From contig JAFGUP010000183.1 of NCBI GenBank assembly GCA_016938475.1, forward strand, positions 1 through 58,568: DNA of 58,568 nucleotides, read 5' to 3'. Shown one piece after another: positions 34,304 through 54,567 of the stretch. A program made the translations under genes and the position numbers. Below the pieces are notes generated by a model. It made no database searches, was not told the origin of the DNA, and was given only the letters and a program-made list of their open reading frames with translations. Within the stretch, counting starts at the first letter, position 1; the number at the start of each line of letters is the position of its first letter. This DNA is from Sphaerochaetaceae bacterium. GTDB taxonomy: Bacteria; Spirochaetota; Spirochaetia; Sphaerochaetales; Sphaerochaetaceae.

Positions 34304-35107
34304 CTAGGTGGGTTGTGTGCAGGTGCTCAGCGTTATTCTGCGTGCATTCTTAAACCACTGGTCGAAATGAGTATCAACTCGCTCGTAATGGATCCGGACA
34401 TTATCAGGGTCGCTCTCACACACGTCTTCCTGCTCTGCCAGCTTTATCCATCTCCATGGGTTTCCAGACACTTTCAACTCTTCATCGTTTCCCATGTAAC
34501 GCCCATCCATCTGAAAGCGATTATTGAGCAGTTTCAGCATGAATAAACCATAATGATTGGTGTTGCTGTTCATCCATGAACCGGTGTAATACTTCCCATG
34601 ATTATACTGAAAGACTAGTGTGTGCCTATGCGGGTATCCGAGAGAGGAGGCAATCTGAACATTCCTGCCCGTGATATGACCCTCTGCATTCAGGGTGATG
34701 TGTTCGATACCATACTGCCGGTCTTCCTTGTGGTCACCCGATGCATTTATCTGATAACATGAGAGCCAAATACCGGGAAGGAAGGCTCCACTCTCTTCAT
34801 TGATCGGGTGGAAGCCTTCAAGTACCGGGTCTTCTGTGTGATGACCGGTAAGTTCCCGATAGGTGCTGAGGCGTGAGAACCAGGCTGCAACAGATGCTCT
34901 GGATCTGTGCTTGAAACCTTTACTGAATAACAGGGAGATGATTTTCTTGATTGAATCTACGGAATATGTATCCATGCTTTCGTTACATGGCACGGTCTCA
35001 GCGATTTCTTCGTTTGACAGCCCTTGAGCGATATAGGAAGCTATCAACATCTCGGTCTGAGACAGCTTCTCTTCTATGCTTATATCTTCAAGGTATTGAG
35101 AATACAT
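34304..35107 (-). CDS. LuxR-like HTH protein with a beta-rich C-terminal domain
   Basis: The 267-aa protein starts with a LuxR/FixJ-style helix-turn-helix (LSQTEMLIASYIAQGLSNEEIAETV and a second helix DSIKKIISLLF). The remaining 180 residues are rich in beta strands and aromatics (LPGIWLSCYQI, HTLVFQYNHGKYYTGSWMN, NRFQMDGRYMG) and look like a small ligand-binding barrel or lipocalin-like fold; I know no family for them. The ATG has no ribosome site, and a TATACT lies ten bases upstream, suggesting a leaderless transcript. It is divergent from the solenoid operon and could be its regulator. Confidence 0.65.
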   Translation of the reverse strand: MYSQYLEDISIEEKLSQTEMLIASYIAQGLSNEEIAETVPCNESMDTYSVDSIKKIISLLFSKGFKHRSRASVAAWFSRLSTYRELTGHHTEDPVLEGFHPINEESGAFLPGIWLSCYQINASGDHKEDRQYGIEHITLNAEGHITGRNVQIASSLGYPHRHTLVFQYNHGKYYTGSWMNSNTNHYGLFMLKLLNNRFQMDGRYMGNDEELKVSGNPWRWIKLAEQEDVCESDPDNVRIHYERVDTHFDQWFKNARRITLSTCTQPT

Positions 35108-35289
35108 AACACGAACAGTATACTGCGATTTCTTTTCAGGTTAAAGGAATTTTCAATTTTTTTTACGTACACGGGAGTACAGAGGCACCAGAGTCCTTTG
35201 GTGCGATGTACCATTCCTCTGCGGCATATCTCTTCGCTGGCCAATGATACTGAACTTTAGTTCCTGATAGATACTCTTTAGTGCGGAAC

Positions 35290-35303
35290 ATTTACCCGAA
35301 AGA
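35290..35303 (+). promoter_or_regulatory. Conserved upstream box, copy A
   Basis: ATTTACCCGAAAGA is repeated exactly at 41490-41503. In both places it starts 41 bp before the -10 hexamer, at about -53 to -40 from the expected transcription start. That spacing suits an activator site. Confidence 0.6.
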
Positions 35304-35308
35304 AACCT

Positions 35309-35336
35309 TTGCTTAGCAAATTCCCCATGGTAATAT
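35309..35336 (+). promoter_or_regulatory. Extended -10 promoter, copy A
   Basis: TAATAT (35331-35336) is preceded by TGG, making an extended -10, and TTGCTT (35309-35314) lies 16 bp upstream. The CCATGGTA around the extended element is also found in copy B. Confidence 0.55.
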
Positions 35337-35372
35337 TCACATAACTATGCAAAGAAGTAAGGAGGACCTGCT

Positions 35373-35438
35373 GTGACACCATTCGATCACATTCTCAGTG
35401 ATAAGCGCCCAGATCTTCCTTTCTGGAGCAACCGCTGA
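35373..35438 (+). CDS. Predicted 21-aa leader peptide, copy A
   Basis: GTG 35373 opens a 21-codon frame (VTPFDHILSDKRPDLPFWSNR, with the GTG read as Met in translation) ending in TGA. AAGGAGG lies exactly seven bases before, better than most ribosome sites in the window. Copy B has the same arrangement. The codons for Pro-Asp-Leu are kept in both with third-base changes in Pro and Asp. Its stop lies two bases before the first hairpin of the structured RNA, suggesting a role in coupling translation to RNA folding. Confidence 0.55.
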   Translation: MTPFDHILSDKRPDLPFWSNR

Positions 35439-35439
35439 G

Positions 35440-35690
35440 CGTATCCCATGCAACAGCATCCGATACGTAGTTTCCCAGATTCATCGTTTGACCCTCAAGA
35501 GGGTATCAGTTTTTTGTGTAAAGGACAAGCCGTTGATTCGGCCCACGATGAATTCACCTCATCTAACATGCTGAATTTCGACTGATGTAAGGGACCCCTC
35601 TGTTCAGTCGACCTGTCTCTCAGGGACCATCCTCAGTCGGTGCGCGAGAAAGTTGTGCGCACTCACCACAGGAAACCCCTGCGCTGAGAT
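35440..35690 (+). ncRNA. Predicted structured 5' leader RNA, copy A
   Basis: The first hairpin is CGTATC-CC-ATGC, AACA loop, GCAT-CC-GATACG (35440-35467). Then GATTCATCGT (35478-35487) pairs with ACGATGAATTC (35545-35555), with one bulged T. This closes a junction containing ACCCT/AGGGT (35491-35504), a run of six T and GCCG/CGGC (35529-35542). Further on, TCGACTGA pairs with TCAGTCGA. The 3' part ends in a conserved AGGAAA, CCCTG, CTGAGAT series, 25 bases before the solenoid start. Copy B keeps the same architecture with paired changes in the closing stem. Confidence 0.6.
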
Positions 35691-35715
35691 GCGCATGTCT
35701 TTTCAGGAGTTTGCC

Positions 35716-41404: not shown

Positions 41405-41489
41405 CGCTCTCTCGGGCGATGCGCACTGATAGACAGAGAGATCACCTTAGGTGCCTGTTCAGACTCTTTCGGGCCTTCTGGAGGATGAG

Positions 41490-41503
41490 ATTTACCCGAA
41501 AGA
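41490..41503 (+). promoter_or_regulatory. Conserved upstream box, copy B
   Basis: ATTTACCCGAAAGA is identical to 35290-35303 and again begins 41 bp before the -10 hexamer. The flanking sequence differs, which argues that the box itself is under selection. Confidence 0.6.
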
Positions 41504-41524
41504 GATCGTCATTGATACGAAATA

Positions 41525-41536
41525 CCATGGTATGCT
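41525..41536 (+). promoter_or_regulatory. Extended -10 promoter, copy B
   Basis: TATGCT (41531-41536) is preceded by TGG as in copy A. No good -35 is found at 16-17 bp, in keeping with an activator-dependent or extended -10 promoter. CCATGGTATG and CATACCTATGG here can also form a hairpin just before the ribosome site. Confidence 0.5.
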
Positions 41537-41568
41537 GGACATACCTATGGTTACAAGGAGGGCCTGCC

Positions 41569-41637
41569 GTGACTCACAGGATTACAGGCAGCAGTGTACT
41601 GCATCCGGACCTTTCGACCCGTAGCGTGCACTGCTAG
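41569..41637 (+). CDS. Predicted 22-aa leader peptide, copy B
   Basis: GTG 41569 opens 22 codons (VTHRITGSSVLHPDLSTRSVHC with GTG read as Met) ending in TAG. AAGGAGG lies seven bases upstream, the same spacing as in copy A. The frame is also open further upstream, but that extension has no counterpart in copy A. Pro-Asp-Leu is shared with the copy A peptide, although most other residues differ. Confidence 0.5.
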   Translation: MTHRITGSSVLHPDLSTRSVHC

Positions 41638-41865
41638 TATCACATCTGATACGCACCAGATCCACCGTCTTGAACCCGAAAGGGTAGCCGATTTTTGTTG
41701 AAAAGATAGCCGCACTTCGTGCGCACGGTTGGATTCACCACCTACCAGACAGAATCACCTGAATCCGGAGTCGTTCCGGTCAGACTGCATTTCTCAACGG
41801 GGAGCCCCTCCGCAGTGTGCTCAGACTATCTGCGCAACCGTCATAGGAAATCCCTGTCCTGAGAT
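41637..41865 (+). ncRNA. Predicted structured 5' leader RNA, copy B
   Basis: GTATC/GATAC forms the first hairpin (41637-41652). GATCCACCGT (41659-41668) pairs with ACGGTTGGATTC (41725-41736), with two bulged T. Inside lie ACCC-GAAA-GGGT (41674-41685), a run of five T, and CGCAC-TTC-GTGCG (41711-41723). Compared with copy A, two U-A pairs of the closing stem have become C-G pairs. The 3' end keeps TGCGCA, AGGAAA, CCCTG and CTGAGAT in order. Confidence 0.6.
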
Positions 41866-41933
41866 CATGCAAGTTGATTCTGAAGAAAACACCCCTTTGA
41901 AAAAACCGGCACCCTGTGCCAAAGGAGACACCT

Positions 41934-43515: not shown

Positions 43516-44055
43516 ATGAAGAAGAAGGAAGTTACCACGGTCTTCGTCTATGGAACGCTGCGTCAGGGTCAGAAGCATCATGATGTCATTGCAAGGAAGA
43601 TCGTTTCCATCGAGAGTGCGTGGATCGATGCACGGCTTTATATCACCAGAGACCACTACCCTGCAATCAATGTGTCACAGGACATCATCCTGCAAGAAGG
43701 AAGTCGGGACCTGCATCGAGATGCAGAGGCCGAAAAGTATTGGGGGGGTGAAAACCTTTCTACCCGTCTGGAAGGGATCAGCATCGTCCCTGTTCTCGCC
43801 GGTGAGCTCGTTTCCCTGTCGTCGCCGATTCATACCCTGTGGTATCTGGATCGCTTCGAAGGATTCGACCCGCTGGGCGAGAGTCTCTACCTTCGCTCCC
43901 TGGTCCCTGTCGTATGCGCCAAGGAAAGCATGCAGGCCTCTTCCTTGTGCCCATCGGAAGTCCCACCTGGTGACACAGACTGGTCTCTGAAGCCGGCCTG
44001 GGTCTACCGCATCCCTCAACATCACATTGCGTATGCACGAAGAGTTCTGCATTAG
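43516..44055 (+). CDS. Gamma-glutamylcyclotransferase-like (AIG2/GGCT fold) protein
   Basis: The 179-aa protein begins VFVYGTLRQGQKHHDVI, the hallmark YGTLR loop of the GGCT fold, and later has LWYLDRFEGFDP, where the family keeps a Asp-x-x-Glu near the active site. A central segment, QEGSRDLHRDAEAEKYWGG, is an insertion relative to small family members. Enzymes of this fold cyclise gamma-glutamyl groups from peptides or proteins, releasing pyroglutamate. GAGGAG precedes the ATG at 43516. Ten bases separate it from solenoid 4, so it is probably co-transcribed and may modify a component of the system. Confidence 0.78.
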   Translation: MKKKEVTTVFVYGTLRQGQKHHDVIARKIVSIESAWIDARLYITRDHYPAINVSQDIILQEGSRDLHRDAEAEKYWGGENLSTRLEGISIVPVLAGELVSLSSPIHTLWYLDRFEGFDPLGESLYLRSLVPVVCAKESMQASSLCPSEVPPGDTDWSLKPAWVYRIPQHHIAYARRVLH

Positions 44056-47457: not shown

Positions 47458-47530
47458 GCCCTTGTAGCTCAGCTGGCAGAGCACCACCATGGTAAGGTGG
47501 GGGTCACCGGTTCAAATCCGGTCGAGGGCT
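47458..47530 (+). tRNA. tRNA-Thr (GGT)
   Basis: A full cloverleaf folds: acceptor GCCCTTG with CGAGGGC (one G-T pair), D stem GCTC/GAGC, anticodon stem CCACC/GGTGG around ATGGTAA with anticodon GGT, T stem ACCGG/CCGGT with loop TTCAAAT. The discriminator base is T, and CCA is not encoded. Confidence 0.95.
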
Positions 47531-47580
47531 CTTTTCTTTTTTTGAGCATAATTGTACGATATATATGCAGGAGTTTTACC

Positions 47581-47757
47581 ATGGCTAGCAAGAAAAAGGG
47601 ACCGGTCGAGAAGATCGCTCTTCAATGCACAGAGTGCAAGCAGAAAAACTATACGACTGAAAAGAATCGCCGTAACACACCAGGAAAGCTTGAGTTGAAC
47701 AAGTATTGTCCGTTTGAGCGGAAACACACGCTTCACCGCGAGACAAAAGTAAAATAA
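47581..47757 (+). CDS. rpmG: 50S ribosomal protein L33
   Basis: The 58-aa protein reads [20 protein letters not shown] and continues with [21 protein letters not shown], the L33 consensus. The first zinc pair (CTEC) is complete, but the second position is CPFE instead of CPxC, so the zinc site is half lost. It sits between two tRNA genes, as in many bacteria where rpmG precedes secE. Confidence 0.95.
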
Positions 47758-47782
47758 GTCTCACCCTGAACGAGAGGTGGAC

Positions 47783-47856
47783 AGGTCAGTAGCTCCAATG
47801 GCTAGAGCGTCGGTCTCCAAAACCGAATGTTGAAGGTTCGAGTCCTTCCTGACCTG
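47783..47856 (+). tRNA. tRNA-Trp (CCA)
   Basis: The 74-base cloverleaf has acceptor AGGTCAG with CTGACCT, D stem GCTC/GAGC, anticodon stem TCGGT/ACCGA around CTCCAAA with anticodon CCA, and T stem GAAGG/CCTTC. The discriminator is G, as expected for tRNA-Trp, and CCA is not encoded. tRNA-Trp just before secE is a common bacterial order. Confidence 0.95.
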
Positions 47857-47885
47857 TCGACCTCTTGTTGATAAGGAAAATGCAG

Positions 47886-48065
47886 ATGAAAAAGATTATA
47901 CAGTATTTAAAGGAAGTCAGGCAGGAACTCAAGAAGGTCGTTTGGCCCGGTAAAGATGAAGTTCTTGCTTCCACCAAGGTCGTGATTGTTTCAACTGCCG
48001 TGTTCGCAGTGATCCTTGGACTTGTTGACTTCCTTCTTGTCCAGGGTATCGATCTGCTGTTCTAG
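47886..48065 (+). CDS. secE: Preprotein translocase subunit SecE
   Basis: The 59-aa protein has the amphipathic helix YLKEVRQELKKVVWPGKDEV with the invariant WP, and one transmembrane helix (VVIVSTAVFAVILGLVDFLL). It clamps SecY in the inner membrane. The ATG at 47886 has AAGGA eight bases upstream; the ATG six bases earlier is too close to that site. Confidence 0.95.
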   Translation: MKKIIQYLKEVRQELKKVVWPGKDEVLASTKVVIVSTAVFAVILGLVDFLLVQGIDLLF

Positions 48066-48073
48066 GAGTTCTC

Positions 48074-48631
48074 ATGGCTAAAGGCTGGTACGTCGTCCAT
48101 ACCTATTCAGGGTATGAGATGAAGATAGAGAAAACAATCCGCAAGATCATGGAAACAGACCTCACGTTTGCTGAGGTTGTTCTTGATGTGAAAGTCCCTA
48201 CTGAAGAGGTGGTTGAGGTCAAAGACGGAGTGAAGAAGACGATCAAGAGAAAGATCCTTCCTTCTTACATCCTCGTACAGATGGACCTGCCCCAGCACAT
48301 GTGGGAAGGGTACTGCTCACAGATCAGAAGAATCCAGGGTGTTACGGGATTTGTCGGTATTCAGCCGGGTAAGAAGCCAGTCCCCCTCTCTTCTGATGAG
48401 CTCAAAGGAATTCTTCAGAAGACCGGAGAGATTCAGAGTGAGAAAGTGTTGCGGCCGAAGCAGACCTTCAGTGTCGGCGAGCACGTCAAGGTCATAGAAG
48501 GACCTTTCGAGACATTCACCGGTGTTGTCGAAGAGGTCAATCTTGAGAAAGCGAAACTGCGCGTCCTTGTCGGGATATTCGGACGGAGTACGCCGGTTGA
48601 AGTTGATTTTTTACAAGTCGAAAAGATCTGA
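48074..48631 (+). CDS. nusG: Transcription antitermination factor NusG
   Basis: The 185-aa protein has the NGN domain (WYVVHTYSGYEMKIEKTI, ILPSYILVQM, GVTGFVG) and a C-terminal KOW domain (FSVGEHVKVIEGPFETFTGVVEEVN). It binds RNA polymerase and couples it to Rho or the ribosome. It follows secE by eight bases, the standard secE-nusG pair. Confidence 0.97.
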   Translation: MAKGWYVVHTYSGYEMKIEKTIRKIMETDLTFAEVVLDVKVPTEEVVEVKDGVKKTIKRKILPSYILVQMDLPQHMWEGYCSQIRRIQGVTGFVGIQPGKKPVPLSSDELKGILQKTGEIQSEKVLRPKQTFSVGEHVKVIEGPFETFTGVVEEVNLEKAKLRVLVGIFGRSTPVEVDFLQVEKI

Positions 48632-48680
48632 TGCACGCCTGAACGTGTTCAGCTCTTCTCGCATAAATAATTCTTCCTGC

Positions 48681-48701
48681 CTTTCAGAATAGTTCTGAAA
48701 G
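48681..48701 (+). terminator. Hairpin after nusG
   Basis: CTTTCAGAA and TTCTGAAAG form a perfect nine-pair stem with loop TAG. No T-tract follows, so it is more likely an RNA processing or pausing site than a full terminator. Confidence 0.45.
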
Positions 48702-48721
48702 ATACGTTCTTTGGAGCGTGA

Positions 48722-48760
48722 AGTGGGAGCCTTATCGTTGATGAGGCGTTATTACCAGCG
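48722..48760 (+). promoter_or_regulatory. Probable L1-binding leader of the rplK-rplA mRNA
   Basis: GTGGGAG is followed by the hairpin GCCTTATC-GTT-GATGAGGC and then GTTATTACCAGC. The asymmetric internal loop between GTGG and CCA(G)C with GA on one side and TTATTA on the other resembles the L11-L1 leader of other bacteria, where L1 binds its own mRNA and represses translation. Confidence 0.5.
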
Positions 48761-48798
48761 TGGCTCATATACATGGAGTACACGTAAGGAGAAAAACT

Positions 48799-49233
48799 AT
48801 GGCAAAGAAAAAGGTTACTGCTGTTATCAAACTGCAGTGTCCGGCCGGTAAGGCTACCCCTGCGCCCCCGATCGGTCCGGCTCTCGGTCCTCACGGAGTA
48901 AGCGCACCCCAGTTTGTCCAGCAGTTCAATGACAAGACGAAAAATCTTGAAGCTGGCCTCACCATCCCCGTTGTGATCACTGTCTATGCAGACCGTTCGT
49001 TCACCTTCATTCTCAAGACGCCACCCGCAGCTGTTCTCATCAAGAAGGCATGTGGTATCACAAGCGGAAGCGGAGTTCCTCACACTCAGAAGGTTGCAAA
49101 GATCACTGATGCGCAGATTGCAGAGATCGCACAGACAAAGTTCGAAGACCTGAACGCCAACGATATGGATGCTGCAAAGAAGATCATTGCAGGAACCGCT
49201 CGTTCGATGGGTGTCGAAGTGGAGGCCAAGTAA
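48799..49233 (+). CDS. rplK: 50S ribosomal protein L11
   Basis: The 144-aa protein is textbook L11: [21 protein letters not shown] at the N terminus, [15 protein letters not shown] and the C-terminal [19 protein letters not shown]. It forms the GTPase-associated centre with L10-L7/L12. The ATG at 48799 has AAGGAG upstream. Its stop overlaps the rplA start. Confidence 0.98.
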
Positions 49234-49910
49234 TGAAAAGAGGTAAGAAATACGCCGAAGCTGCTGCACAGGTTGACAAGACTCAGATGCTGACCTTCGT
49301 CGAAGCTGCCGAGCTCGTCAAGAAAGTAGCATTCGCTAAGTTCGATGAGACAGTCGAGATGTCCATGAACCTCTCACTCAAGAAGAGTCAGTCTGTTCGT
49401 GATACTGTCGTCCTTCCCAACCAGTTTTCAGAAGAGAAGAAAGTTCTGGTCTTCGCCAAGGGCGAGAAGGCCGAAGAGGCCAAGGAAGCTGGTGCCGCCT
49501 ATGTCGGTGATGTCGACCTGGTCGAAAAGATCCGCGGTGGATGGATGGAGTTCGACGTTGCAGTTGCCACTCCCGACATGATGAAAGATGTCGGTCGTCT
49601 CGGTCCTATCCTCGGTCGTCGCGGTCTTATGCCGAACCCGAAGACACAGACTGTTACATTTGATATCAAGGGAGCTCTTGCAGAGCTGAAGAAGGGAAGA
49701 GTCGAGTTCAGAAGTGATAAGACCGGTGTCGTTCACCTTGCTGTCGGTAAGGTGTCCATGGACGCAGATAAGATCGCTGAGAACGCTCACATCGTCCTTG
49801 CTGAAGTTCTAAAGAGAAAACCCGCAGATGCAAAAGGTGAATTCCTGAAGAGCATCTCACTCTCTTCTACCATGGGCCCCGGTGTCATGGTCTCCACCAA
49901 AGAGAACTAG
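49233..49910 (+). CDS. rplA: 50S ribosomal protein L1
   Basis: The 225-aa protein has [16 protein letters not shown], the [12 protein letters not shown] strand and the [18 protein letters not shown] motif of L1. It builds the L1 stalk and probably represses its own operon through the leader ahead of rplK. It shares the TAATG overlap with rplK and is followed by rplJ after ten bases. Confidence 0.98.
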
Positions 49911-49920
49911 GAGGTACGAT

Positions 49921-50430
49921 ATGGCATACGAGACAAGAAAAGCACAGTATAAAGTCGATGCAGTTAAAGAGATGAAAGGCGAATTCTCAGAATACGATGG
50001 TTTCATTTTCACCGATTACCGCGGTATGACTGTTGAACAGATCACAAACCTCCGCAGCGAGCTCAGAAAGAACGAATCAGCCTACCGTGTCGTCAAGAAC
50101 CGGTTTGCAAAGATCGTCCTTGCTGACCTCAACCAGGAAGGATATGAAGACAAGCTCGTCGGACCGACAGCTGTTGCACTCACCAAGGGTGAGGATGCTT
50201 CGAACGCTGTGAGTAAGGCTATCGTCGCTTTCATGAAGGATGCTCCCATCGACGTGAAAGGCGCTATCCTGAATGGGCAGCTGTACGATAAAGATGCGCT
50301 TATCGCATATAGTAAGCTTCCGACCAGACTCGAACTGATAGCGAGCCTGATGGGAACCATGAATGCACCGATGAACAAGCTTGCCCGCACTCTGCAGGCA
50401 ATGGTTGATGCACAGACAGAAGCAGAATAA
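49921..50430 (+). CDS. rplJ: 50S ribosomal protein L10
   Basis: The 169-aa protein has the L10 core (FIFTDYRGMTVEQITNLRSELR and YRVVKNRFAKI) and a C-terminal helix that binds L7/L12 dimers. The ATG at 49921 has AGGAGG eight bases upstream; earlier in-frame Met codons fall inside rplA. Confidence 0.97.
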   Translation: MAYETRKAQYKVDAVKEMKGEFSEYDGFIFTDYRGMTVEQITNLRSELRKNESAYRVVKNRFAKIVLADLNQEGYEDKLVGPTAVALTKGEDASNAVSKAIVAFMKDAPIDVKGAILNGQLYDKDALIAYSKLPTRLELIASLMGTMNAPMNKLARTLQAMVDAQTEAE

Positions 50431-50473
50431 ACGGTATTAGTCTTCGCATTAGACGTAGACCTGCTATTACCGT
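50431..50473 (+). promoter_or_regulatory. Long hairpin in the rplJ-rplL gap
   Basis: ACGGTATTAG (50431-50440) pairs with CTATTACCGT (50464-50473) at nine of ten positions. A smaller GTCT/AGAC stem fits inside. It may help to raise L7/L12 output over L10, which is needed in several copies per ribosome, by processing or stabilising the mRNA. Confidence 0.5.
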
Positions 50474-50496
50474 GAAGTATACAAGGAGAAGATAAT

Positions 50497-50877
50497 ATGG
50501 CTACAATCACGAAAGAAGACATGCTCGAAGCAATCGCAAGCATGACAGTGATGGAGATCTCGGAACTGATTTCAGCAATGGAAGAGAAGTTCGGTGTAAC
50601 CGCAGCAGCACCCGTTGCAGCAGCCGGCGCAGCAGTCGCAGCAGCTGAAGAGGTTGAAGAGCAGACAGAGTTCGACGTCGTCCTCACCGGTCTCGCCGAA
50701 GGTGCAAAGCCCATTCCTGTCATCAAGGAAGTCCGCGCTATCACAGGTCTCGGCCTCAAGGAAGCAAAGGACCTCGTTTCAGCTGGTGGACCTATCAAGG
50801 AAGCAGTATCCAAGGAAGACGCTGCAGCCATGAAAGAGAAGCTTGAAGCTGCAGGCGCTACTATTGAAGTTAAATAA
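50497..50877 (+). CDS. rplL: 50S ribosomal protein L7/L12
   Basis: The 126-aa protein has the N-terminal dimer helices ([16 protein letters not shown]), an Ala-rich hinge, and the C-terminal domain with [36 protein letters not shown]. It recruits translation factors on the L10 stalk. A AAGGAG site precedes the ATG. Confidence 0.98.
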
Positions 50878-50940
50878 TTCGCTTTTTCCTATGCATAGTA
50901 GTCGGGCATCACGCCCGCGGCTGTAACAGCCCGTTGAGGA

Positions 50941-50965
50941 GCCACCGGACATGTGTTCCGGTGGC
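50941..50965 (+). promoter_or_regulatory. Perfect hairpin between rplL and rpoB
   Basis: GCCACCGGA (50941-50949) pairs with TCCGGTGGC (50957-50965) around a seven-base loop, without a T-tract. A GGGC/GCCC stem-loop lies just before it. In many bacteria this gap holds an attenuator or RNase III site that lowers rpoBC expression relative to rplL; the same is inferred here. Confidence 0.5.
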
Positions 50966-51045
50966 CACTCGTGTCAATCTATCGGAGAGTGTTTTTCAGG
51001 TCTCGCCTGGAAGATGTCTCATGATCCGACCTTTGGAGGGTAACA

Positions 51046-54000
51046 ATGGTTGCCAAAGGCAATTCAATCAATAGAACATATGTTGGAGCCCACTATGATA
51101 CTGTCTGTGAGTTACCTAATCTTGTAGGTATTCAGCTTGAATCGTACGAACGGTTTCTTCAGCTCGGACGTGTATACAGTGGTCAGGAATTGGATACCAC
51201 CAGCGGCCTTGAACAGGTCTTCCGTTCGACATTCCCGATCGAGAGTCCCAATGGTGAGATGACTCTCAACTTCGGTTCGTACACAGTCGACCTGGACAAT
51301 ATCAAATTTTCGGAACTCGAGTGTAAGCGTAAGGGTCGTACCTATTCAGCTCAAATCAAGGCAACCATCTCCCTCTATTTCTCTGCGACCGGAGAGTTGA
51401 GAGAGAAGGAGATCTACTTCGGTGATATCCCACTGATGACAGACCGCGGTACGTTCATCATCAATGGTGCCGAACGTGTCGTCGTTTCTCAGATCCACCG
51501 TTCTCCCGGTGTTATCTTCAGTAACGATAAGGGCATCTACTCTTCCCGTATCATCCCGTACCGCGGCTCCTGGCTTGAGTTCGAGATCGATGACAAGAGA
51601 AGAAACCTGATCTACGCGAAGGTTGACCGTAAGAAGAAAATCCTCGGAACGCTCTTCCTTCGCGCCATCGGCGTTGATACCAGAGAGAAGATCGTCTCCT
51701 CATTCTATCTCTCTCGAAGTGTTGAGCTCAGTGAAGACGCAAGCGCGAACAACGAGCTCGTCGGGGCCATCAGCTATCGCGATATCTATTCCACCAAGGG
51801 TGGCAAGAACGCTCCTAAGCTCCTGAGAGCCGGTGATGAGCTTTCTCCTGCCTATATCGAAGCCCTTGTGATGGATGGTATCAGAAGTATCGAGGTGATT
51901 GATGAAGATCATCCTGATTCTCTGCACTCGAGAGCTATCATCAACTGTCTTGATGTAGAAGATGCTAAATATACTCAGGAAGGGAACGACGAGCCTACTA
52001 AGGAAGACGTACTCTCTCCCATCTATGCCGTTCTTCAACCCGGTGAGATGATCGCTATCGAGCGGGCTGAAAAAGACCTTCCCGATATGTTCTTCTCCTC
52101 CCGTCGATATGATCTGGGAAACGTGGGCCGCTATAAGTTCAACAAGAAGTTCGGAACTGATGAGGAAGCTGATGATGAAGAGGCCAGCACCGATCTGACA
52201 GTCCTCACTCCTCAGGATATCGTCAACACCATGGGGTTCCTTATCAAGGTGTATATCGGTGAAGAGAATGTCGATGATATCGACCACCTCGGTAACCGCC
52301 GTGTGAGAAGTGTAGGTGAGCTGCTGCAGAATCAGCTGAGTGCCGCCTTCGCACGTATGGAGCGGATCGCCCGTGAGCGGATGAACCTTGAGACCAACCA
52401 GGTGCGTCCCCATGATCTGATCAGTAACAAACCGATTGTTTCCGCTATCAAAGAGTTCTTTGGTTCAAGCCAGCTCTCTCAGTTCATGGACCAGGTCAAC
52501 CCGCTTGCCGAACTGACCCACAAACGACGACTCAACGCTCTGGGACCAGGTGGTCTTTCACGTGACAGGGCTTCCTTCGAAGTCCGTGACGTTCACTATA
52601 CCCACTACGGGAGGATGTGTCCGATCGAGACTCCTGAAGGTCCGAACATCGGTCTTATCGTGTCACTGGCAAACTATACCAGAGTGAACAAGCATGGATT
52701 CCTCGAATCTCCCTATCGGAAGGTGGTCGATGGTGTGGTGAGCAAGAACTACCGCTACCTCGATGCCAACGATGAGGAGAAGTACTTCATCGCTCAGGGA
52801 AATGCTCCAATTCGAGAGGATGGATCATTCGTTGAACAGGAAGTACCGGTGAGACGCAGCGGTGACTACACGACCCGTTCGGTCAAGGACGTCAAGTACA
52901 TGGACGTTTCCCCGATGCAGGTTATCTCGGTAGCCGCCTCTCTCATCCCGTTCCTTGAGCACGACGATGCGAACAGAGCTCTCATGGGTTCGAACATGCA
53001 GCGTCAGGCTGTTCCTCTCTTATTCCCTGAGACCCCCGTGGTCGGTACCGGTATGGAAGGCAAGACTGCCTACGACTCAGGTGTCCTTATCAAGGCAAAG
53101 AGAGCAGGTGTCGTGTCCTATGTTTCTGCTACCCGTGTGGAAATCACACCTGATGCTCCCCAGATCGAAGGAGAGGTCGATGTCTACACCGTCCAGAAAT
53201 TCGAGAGAACGAACCAGGATACCTGTTTCAACCAGAAGCCGATCGTAGAGAAGGGACAGAAGGTTCCTGCAGGTGCAGTCCTCGCAGATGGACCTGCGAC
53301 TGAAAAGGGTGAACTGGCACTGGGAAGGAATATCCTCTGTGGATTCGTCCCCTGGGACGGGTACAACTATGAGGATGCCGTCCTTATCAGCGAACGTGTC
53401 GTCAAGGAAGATATCTACACCTCGATCCATATCAAGGAGTTCGTCACCGATATACGTGAGACGAAGCTCGGACCCGAAAAGCTTACACGCGATATCCCTA
53501 ACACGAGCGAGAAGAATCTCGAACAGCTTGATGAGGATGGTATCGTGAGGGTCGGTACGGTTGTCCGCCCCGGCAATATTCTGGTCGGTAAGGTGACTCC
53601 CAAGAGTGAGAGCGATACAACTCCCGAGTTCAAGCTCCTCAACTCGATCTTTGGTGAGAAGGCGAAGGAAGTGCGTGATACCTCCCTCAAGGTTCCCCAT
53701 GGAACTGAAGGGACGGTCATTGACATCCAGCGCCTCAAGCGGAGCGAGGGTGATGAACTGCAGCCGGGTGTCGATGAGGTGGTCAAGGTCCTTATCGCTG
53801 TAAAGCGTAAGCTGCGGCAGGGTGATAAGATGGCAGGACGCCACGGAAACAAGGGTGTCGTAGCCCGGGTTCTTCCAGAAGAGGATATGCCCTACATGGC
53901 TGACGGTACTCCACTGGATGTATGTCTCAACCCTCTGGGTGTTCCTTCACGAATGAACATCGGGCAGCTGATGGAGACACAGCTCGGCTGGGCCGGAAAG

Positions 54001-54567
54001 AAACTTGGTGAGTGGTACTCCTCTCCCGTATTCCAGTCAGCATCAATGGAACAGATTGAAGAAAAGATGGTTGAAGCGGGACTTCCCAGAACCAGTAAGA
54101 CCGTCCTGCATGACGGACGAACCGGGGTAGCCTTTGTGAATCCCGTCTTCTGCGGATACATCTACTATCTGAAACTGCACCACCTTGTTGATGACAAGAT
54201 GCATGCCCGTTCCACCGGCCCCTATTCGCTGGTCACTCAGCAGCCGCTCGGTGGTAAGGCACAGTTTGGTGGACAGAGACTCGGAGAGATGGAAGTGTGG
54301 GCTCTTGAAGCGTACGGTGCTGCCAATACCCTGCAGGAGCTGCTCACCATCAAGAGTGATGATATGAACGGAAGGGTGAAGATCTACGAAAGTATCGTGA
54401 AGGGCGAACCTGCCACCAACGCAGGTATGCCTGAGGCTTTCAATGTTCTGATTCAGGAAGTTCGCGGCCTTGCGCTCAATATGTCCGTCTTCGACTCGAA
54501 GGGAAGACAGGTGCCGCTGACTGAGCGCGATGAAGAGTTGATCAACAAGCGCGACTCGAATAACTAG
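51046..54567 (+). CDS. rpoB: RNA polymerase beta subunit
   Basis: The 1173-aa protein has all beta-subunit landmarks: the rifampicin region with [16 protein letters not shown] and [12 protein letters not shown], then [27 protein letters not shown] and the C-terminal [24 protein letters not shown]. Asn497 (codon 52534-52536) replaces the usual Ser at the position of E. coli Ser531, as known in spirochaetes. A GGAGG site precedes the ATG. rpoC follows after ten bases. Confidence 0.99.

Follow-up and report, generated by a model that had tools for sequence, protein, structure and literature searches.

Riboswitches and ribosomal-protein leaders are long structured non-coding stretches that lie directly before an open reading frame and carry covarying stems, a description that also fits the two leaders reported here. 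The present leaders differ from them in lacking an Rfam match, a common terminator and a common Shine-Dalgarno switch, and in preceding genes without a known metabolic role. The RNAs OLE, GOLLD and ROOL (PMC12286853, PMC12054373) offer a second comparison, being large, multi-domain, non-coding, patchily distributed and of unknown function, whereas the RNA described below is placed as a gene leader and has no Rfam match. In the tisB mRNA leader a pseudoknot and a standby site accompany a sequestered ribosome-binding site, and long-range pairing together with an upstream segment governs translation of the next reading frame, which is the likeness to the present case; compared by description only, the two differ in that the ribosome-binding site is sequestered in tisB and of ordinary accessibility here (PMC7708055). 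HMP2_4205, a candidate structured RNA of Bacteroidetes, also lies near genes for TPR proteins but, again by description only, differs in being 132 nt long and palindromic (PMC8040213).

The window analysed here is a 58,568-nucleotide stretch of a Sphaerochaetaceae bacterium (GCA_016938475.1, contig JAFGUP010000183.1), in which two related leaders, A and B, precede solenoid-type genes. The pair is, with high confidence, a real and previously uncatalogued structured RNA, and a cis-regulatory role for it is on balance probable.

Extent and conservation of the two leaders

Leader A (35205-35706) and leader B (41408-41882) are homologous over about 480 nt, as judged by MAFFT and by alignment against shuffles, with 58% identity in the gapless columns of 35205-35700. 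The initial annotation had singled out 35440-35690 and 41637-41865; these segments are indeed homologous, but the conserved length is about 480 nt rather than 250. Against shuffled sequence, global DNA alignment of the core (35359-35706 with 41555-41882) reaches z = 35.6, and that of the upstream block (35205-35358 with 41408-41554) reaches z = 13.5. The two reading frames that follow the leaders align at z 0.3 over their first 120 nt and 3.1 over their first 60 nt, and this difference between reading-frame starts and leaders places the conservation in the non-coding part. The homology spans the entire gap and ends near the start codon, each conserved leader stopping 10-50 nt before the ATG in both copies.

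In each gapless segment, mismatches between A and B fall evenly on all three codon phases, and the copies change frame relative to each other from one segment to the next; the leaders are thus non-coding, since their substitutions lack codon periodicity. Six-frame comparison returns one frame pair at E 1e-9, which runs through stops in both copies and shows no phase bias. Eight of the kept pairs are G-U in one copy or both and would become A-C mismatches on the other strand, which points to the + strand as the RNA strand. The genes after both leaders also lie on the + strand, and the reverse complement likewise folds conservedly, as expected.

Table 1. Features of leaders A and B and of the adjoining solenoid-type genes.
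Feature	Coordinates	Strand	Remarks
Sigma-70-like promoter candidate, upstream of leader A	35096-35124	+	TTGAGA-17-TATACT; consensus scan, 10/12 matches
Upstream conserved block of leader A	35205-35358	+	TTTACCCGAAAGA-N21-CCATGGTA-N6-ACATA.CTATG; homologous to 41408-41554
Proposed 5' pseudoknot arm of A, AAGGAGGA	35359-35366	+	Shine-Dalgarno-like; with 35414-35421 (Pgamma loop)
Candidate upstream ORF of A	35373-35438	+	GTG, 21 codons + TGA
Pgamma stem of A	35394-35439	+	CTCAGTG/CGCTGAG and inner CCAGA/TCTGG; vs B, changed on both sides in 3 pairs and on one side in 1
Hairpin P0 of A	35441-35466	+	GTATC/GATAC; 5 invariant pairs; predicted fold
Domain 1 of A	35478-35554	+	Four-way junction P1-P4; 6 double changes; A and B folded separately give the same prediction
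Closing stem of A	35478-35487 with 35545-35554	+	GATTCATCGT pairs with ACGATGAATT
Domain 2 of A	35571-35706	+	Closing stem CTGAA/TTCAG; P5 35582-35607; P6 35618-35625/35677-35689; P7 35641-35661
Alternative hairpin, copy A only	35655-35696	+	Excludes P6/P7; followed by TGTCTTTT
Solenoid protein 1, P0001	35716-37668	+	650 aa; nothing above Pfam cut-off
Solenoid protein 2, P0002	37665-39554	+	629 aa
Solenoid protein 3, P0003	39551-41404	+	617 aa; weak TPR (TPR_10 E 1.1e-4, under curated cut-off)
Upstream conserved block of leader B	41408-41554	+	
Counterpart of 35359-35366 in B, AAGGAGGG	41555-41562	+	Pairs with 41610-41617 (6/8)
Candidate upstream ORF of B	41569-41637	+	GTG, 22 codons + TAG
Pgamma stem of B	41590-41635	+	
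Hairpin P0 of B	41637-41652	+	
Domain 1 of B	41659-41735	+	P1-P4; matched by model of copy A alone
Closing stem of B	41659-41664 with 41730-41735; 41665-41668 with 41725-41728		GATCCA/TGGATT; CCGT/ACGG; bulged T 41729
Domain 2 of B	41750-41882	+	Closing stem CAGAATCA/TGATTCTG; P5, P6, P7
Solenoid protein 4, P0004	41934-43505	+	523 aa; TPR-like, weak TPR; all-helical model, pLDDT 59

Architecture of the shared fold

The conserved core begins with the long Pgamma stem, whose loop is proposed to pair back to the Shine-Dalgarno-like segment at the 5' edge of the core, and continues through hairpin P0 into two domains (Table 1). The proposed pseudoknot comprises eight pairs in A, six of which form in B, with one double change. 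Domain 1 is a four-way junction that RNAfold returns identically when A and B are folded separately, and the stems of domain 2 in A match homologous positions in B with one double change. All elements reported by the initial annotation are present where it placed them in both copies: two U-A pairs of the closing stem in A are C-G pairs in B with pairing retained, the hairpin loop reads CAAG in A and GAAA in B, and AGGAAA.CCCTG..CTGAGAT occurs in both. The T run is likewise there, forming the 5' arm of the third hairpin (P3). Where the initial annotation gave two compensatory changes, the full set contains 11 double-changed pairs, including those in the stem at 35394-35439, which had not been listed before. 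They are distributed over P1 (two), P3 (one), P4 (three), the outer (two) and inner (one) parts of Pgamma, the closing stem of domain 2 (one) and the pseudoknot (one), the P4 changes varying with the loop alignment.

The 3' part diverges between copies in one respect. In copy A the alternative hairpin beats the conserved P6/P7 fold by 5.1 kcal/mol, and part of it is flagged as terminator-like; copy B has no counterpart.

Statistical support for conserved structure

Relative to dinucleotide shuffles, the folding energy of 35439-35558 lies at z -5.1, and the cores of A and B lie at -4.0 and -3.4. In a 120-nt scan of the intergenic gaps of the window, only the tRNA gap folds lower than the two leaders, and the gap before rpoB comes close to them. 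The stretch before rpoB (50938-51045, +) folds at z about -3.0, near the values of the leaders, and has no Rfam match.

Conservation of the pairs was assessed by a permutation test in which the MAFFT alignment is held fixed, only the mismatched letters of B are permuted, and the probable pairs of A are sought in B within two bases. Overall, 53.2 pairs are shared, against 16.6 (sd 5.8) in permutations, none of 150 of which scores as high. Domain 1 (P1-P4) shares 22.5 pairs against 8.8 (1/1000), Pgamma is reached in 22/1000 and domain 2 in 10/500, and the upstream block 35205-35358 has no significant structure conservation in the same test (264/1000). RNAalifold on the plain MAFFT alignment finds the whole element not significant (39/300), as the helices of A and B are offset from each other by one or two bases.

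A fold built by hand across 35359-35706, on a hand alignment padded with N, contains 73 pairs in 13 helices; 67 of the 73 are kept in both copies, and 96.6% of cells are paired. Its 11 double-changed pairs compare with a shuffle mean of 5.4 (sd 1.7), with 0/500 shuffles as high, and shifting the partners by 1-3 columns leaves only 0-1. Since the hand alignment had been adjusted to suit the fold, these counts lend support but are not independent evidence. Independent support comes from the permutation test and from R2, a covariance model of copy A alone, for which copy B is the sole other match (21.5 bits; E 0.0011 within the window, 0.058 against the full 3.07 Mb genome).

Search for further copies

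Since a BLASTN search of the genome with A misses B, covariance models were built: R1 from A and B, R2 from A alone, and R3, a longer model from A and B. None of the 4227 families of Rfam 15 matches the leaders at the gathering threshold and no relevant match appears up to E 10, in agreement with the first impression that neither a known riboswitch, nor a T-box, nor a ribosomal leader is present. In the window Rfam detects two tRNAs only. The resemblance of the four-way junction to a cloverleaf raised tRNA or tmRNA as a candidate, which was rejected, ARAGORN finding tRNA-Thr and tRNA-Trp only.

R1 recovers just the two copies in their own genome, and searches with R1 and R3 yield nothing convincing as a third copy in 139 family, 395 class and 393 phylum genomes (overlapping sets, about 800 in all). 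One R1 match of 27.8 bits, L021:1501-1590 (G029:C18), lies beside a TnpB-like reading frame; with many broken pairs and the rest of the element absent, it was judged to be chance. R3 matches in G050, G399 and G379 were set aside, as they contain large deletions of model positions and have no R1 match. A single scan of 84,980 genomes for an exact pattern returned 13 matches, all attributed to chance, and no third copy, and exact patterns in viral contigs gave chance matches only; the DNA of copy A is unmatched in plasmids and that of copy B in phages. The initial annotation had named a lack of further covarying homologues as grounds against its reading, and the search of relatives with the two-copy model, which found no third homologue, technically counts against it on those terms. 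This objection is weakened because models can miss homologues that have diverged as much as A from B; the low score that the copy A model gives to B illustrates how such homologues could be missed. The proposal of a new cis-acting RNA class therefore holds in so far as a structured + strand RNA with compensatory changes and no Rfam match is present, but the class itself is not established with no third homologue, and with two copies in one genome a new RNA family or class stays unproven.

Genomic context and encoded proteins

Both leaders are placed alike relative to solenoid-type genes. The initial description, 'ahead of solenoid operons', suits copy A, which precedes three solenoid genes, but fits copy B less well, as it precedes one solenoid gene and a GGACT-like gene. 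Copy B occupies the space separating the P0003 and P0004 genes. No significant family was found for proteins 1 and 2, which are termed solenoids, as in the initial annotation, on account of their helical-repeat style. A clear relationship between P0001 and P0004 is lacking (BLASTP E 0.065; global z 1.4). The AlphaFold model of P0004 has low confidence and yields generic TPR matches only. Relatives of P0001 were absent from 138 family genomes and relatives of P0004 from 61, and none of the solenoid proteins has relatives in phages or plasmids where tried.

Several neighbouring features were also recorded. The GGACT-like (gamma-glutamylcyclotransferase/AIG2) gene at 43516-44055 (+) directly follows the solenoid gene of copy B, and the region 47458-54567 (+) contains tRNA-Thr, tRNA-Trp, nusG and rpoB. 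Relatives keep the tRNA pair and nusG, while the genes upstream, solenoid block included, differ; those relatives whose contigs extend far enough lack this block upstream of nusG. A divergent gene at 34304-35107 (-) adjoins leader A; its N-terminal part resembles the LuxR/GerE helix-turn-helix (E 6e-5, just under cut-off), the remainder matches nothing, and its product is a possible local regulator.

Upstream block, promoter candidate and upstream reading frame

Within the upstream block, TTTACCCGAAAGA, exactly 21 nt, CCATGGTA, 6 nt and ACATA.CTATG follow one another at fixed spacing at 35285-35358 and 41485-41554. The block also contains the dyads CCATGG and CATA-NN-TATG, and forms two strong hairpins in B while being weakly paired in A. 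The fixed-spacing segment may be a DNA site instead of an RNA element.

The suggestion of a structured ncRNA made from the same promoter found no support: the sole sigma-70-like candidate lies upstream of A, where it is weak (1.2 expected in shuffles), and the consensus scan found none at copy B. Judging from that scan, copy B may lie between cistrons of a single long mRNA.

Each copy also contains a candidate upstream reading frame whose Shine-Dalgarno sequence and GTG are identical in A and B while the peptide is not conserved. Across the two copies, neither a conserved peptide nor a codon pattern was found that would mark a leader peptide or attenuator.

Interpretation and alternative explanations

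The reading favoured here, by a slight preponderance, is that each copy is a long structured RNA of about 350-480 nt serving as an untranslated leader that controls the following solenoid gene in cis; it is the best fit because of position, fold and orientation. Conserved structure with covariation is found in the 5' untranslated stretch, from two copies only. A conserved expression platform, whether terminator/antiterminator or masking of the ribosome-binding site, was not found across A and B: conservation between them is lost in the 10-50 nt that precede the ATG, no terminator is common to both, and special masking of the Shine-Dalgarno sequence found no support, its accessibility of 0.27 (A) and 0.42 (B) being ordinary for genes of the window.

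We rank this cis-acting leader above a stand-alone RNA, leader-peptide control and a DNA-level element, in that order. Were the RNA a stand-alone large structured ncRNA, separately transcribed or processed and perhaps part of an RNP that includes the solenoid proteins, the solenoid genes would be partners and not targets. Its size and complexity (about 350-480 nt), its better conservation between copies than that of the adjacent, barely or not similar proteins, and the absence of a common expression platform are consistent with such an RNA; neither a separate promoter nor a common terminator was found, however, and each copy lies right against the start codon of the gene that follows it, B filling an intercistronic gap, so that we consider it possible but unlikely. 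A related and quite improbable proposal makes the RNA a component or ligand of an alpha-solenoid protein system specific to this lineage, which would be an RNP module with no described counterpart. Control by an upstream reading frame, in which translation of the 21-22 codon GTG frame opens or closes Pgamma and hence the downstream fold, would account for AAGGAGG.CCTGC.GTGAC being among the best conserved blocks and for frame ends that differ by at most three bases between copies, within the Pgamma 3' arm. Yet the peptides are almost wholly different and a codon-phase signal is absent, a frame of such length is likely by chance, and AAGGAGG is equally usable as a pairing arm, which leaves this explanation improbable.

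Conservation at the DNA level only, from a duplicated promoter or operator with inverted repeats whose RNA fold is a by-product, is very doubtful: the core has four nested helices, compensatory changes and G-U pairs, and operators need no four-way junction, even though the block 35205-35358, with its dyads, is alike in sequence but not in structure between the copies, and copy A has a divergent LuxR-type regulator gene beside it. The least credible explanation, to which we give almost no weight, is a decayed protein-coding pair, pseudogenes seeming conserved through codon constraint. Changes that look synonymous in some short translated blocks, together with the one frame pair noted above, would suit it, but phase-even mismatches, stops in all frames and changes of relative frame largely refute it.

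If the cis-acting leader reading holds, the 5' part, comprising Pgamma, its AAGGAGG pairing and the four-way junction P1-P4, would be the domain that senses or binds, and the 3' part, with P5-P7 and the closing stem, would relay its state to the solenoid gene at the level of translation or transcription. As a first guess, the partner would be the solenoid proteins themselves, in autogenous control, in preference to a small ligand. In copy A only, the 3' part could switch, because the hairpin at 35655-35696 excludes the P6/P7 fold.

Significance

If real, the element is a previously unreported RNA of about 350-480 nt that has kept its fold at about 58% identity while the neighbouring proteins have diverged beyond ready recognition, and would be a case of a regulatory RNA outlasting the protein sequence that accompanies it. 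It would also supply a defined, testable RNA pair for finding binding partners. Restriction to one species would bear on how often searches that depend on many homologues miss such RNAs.
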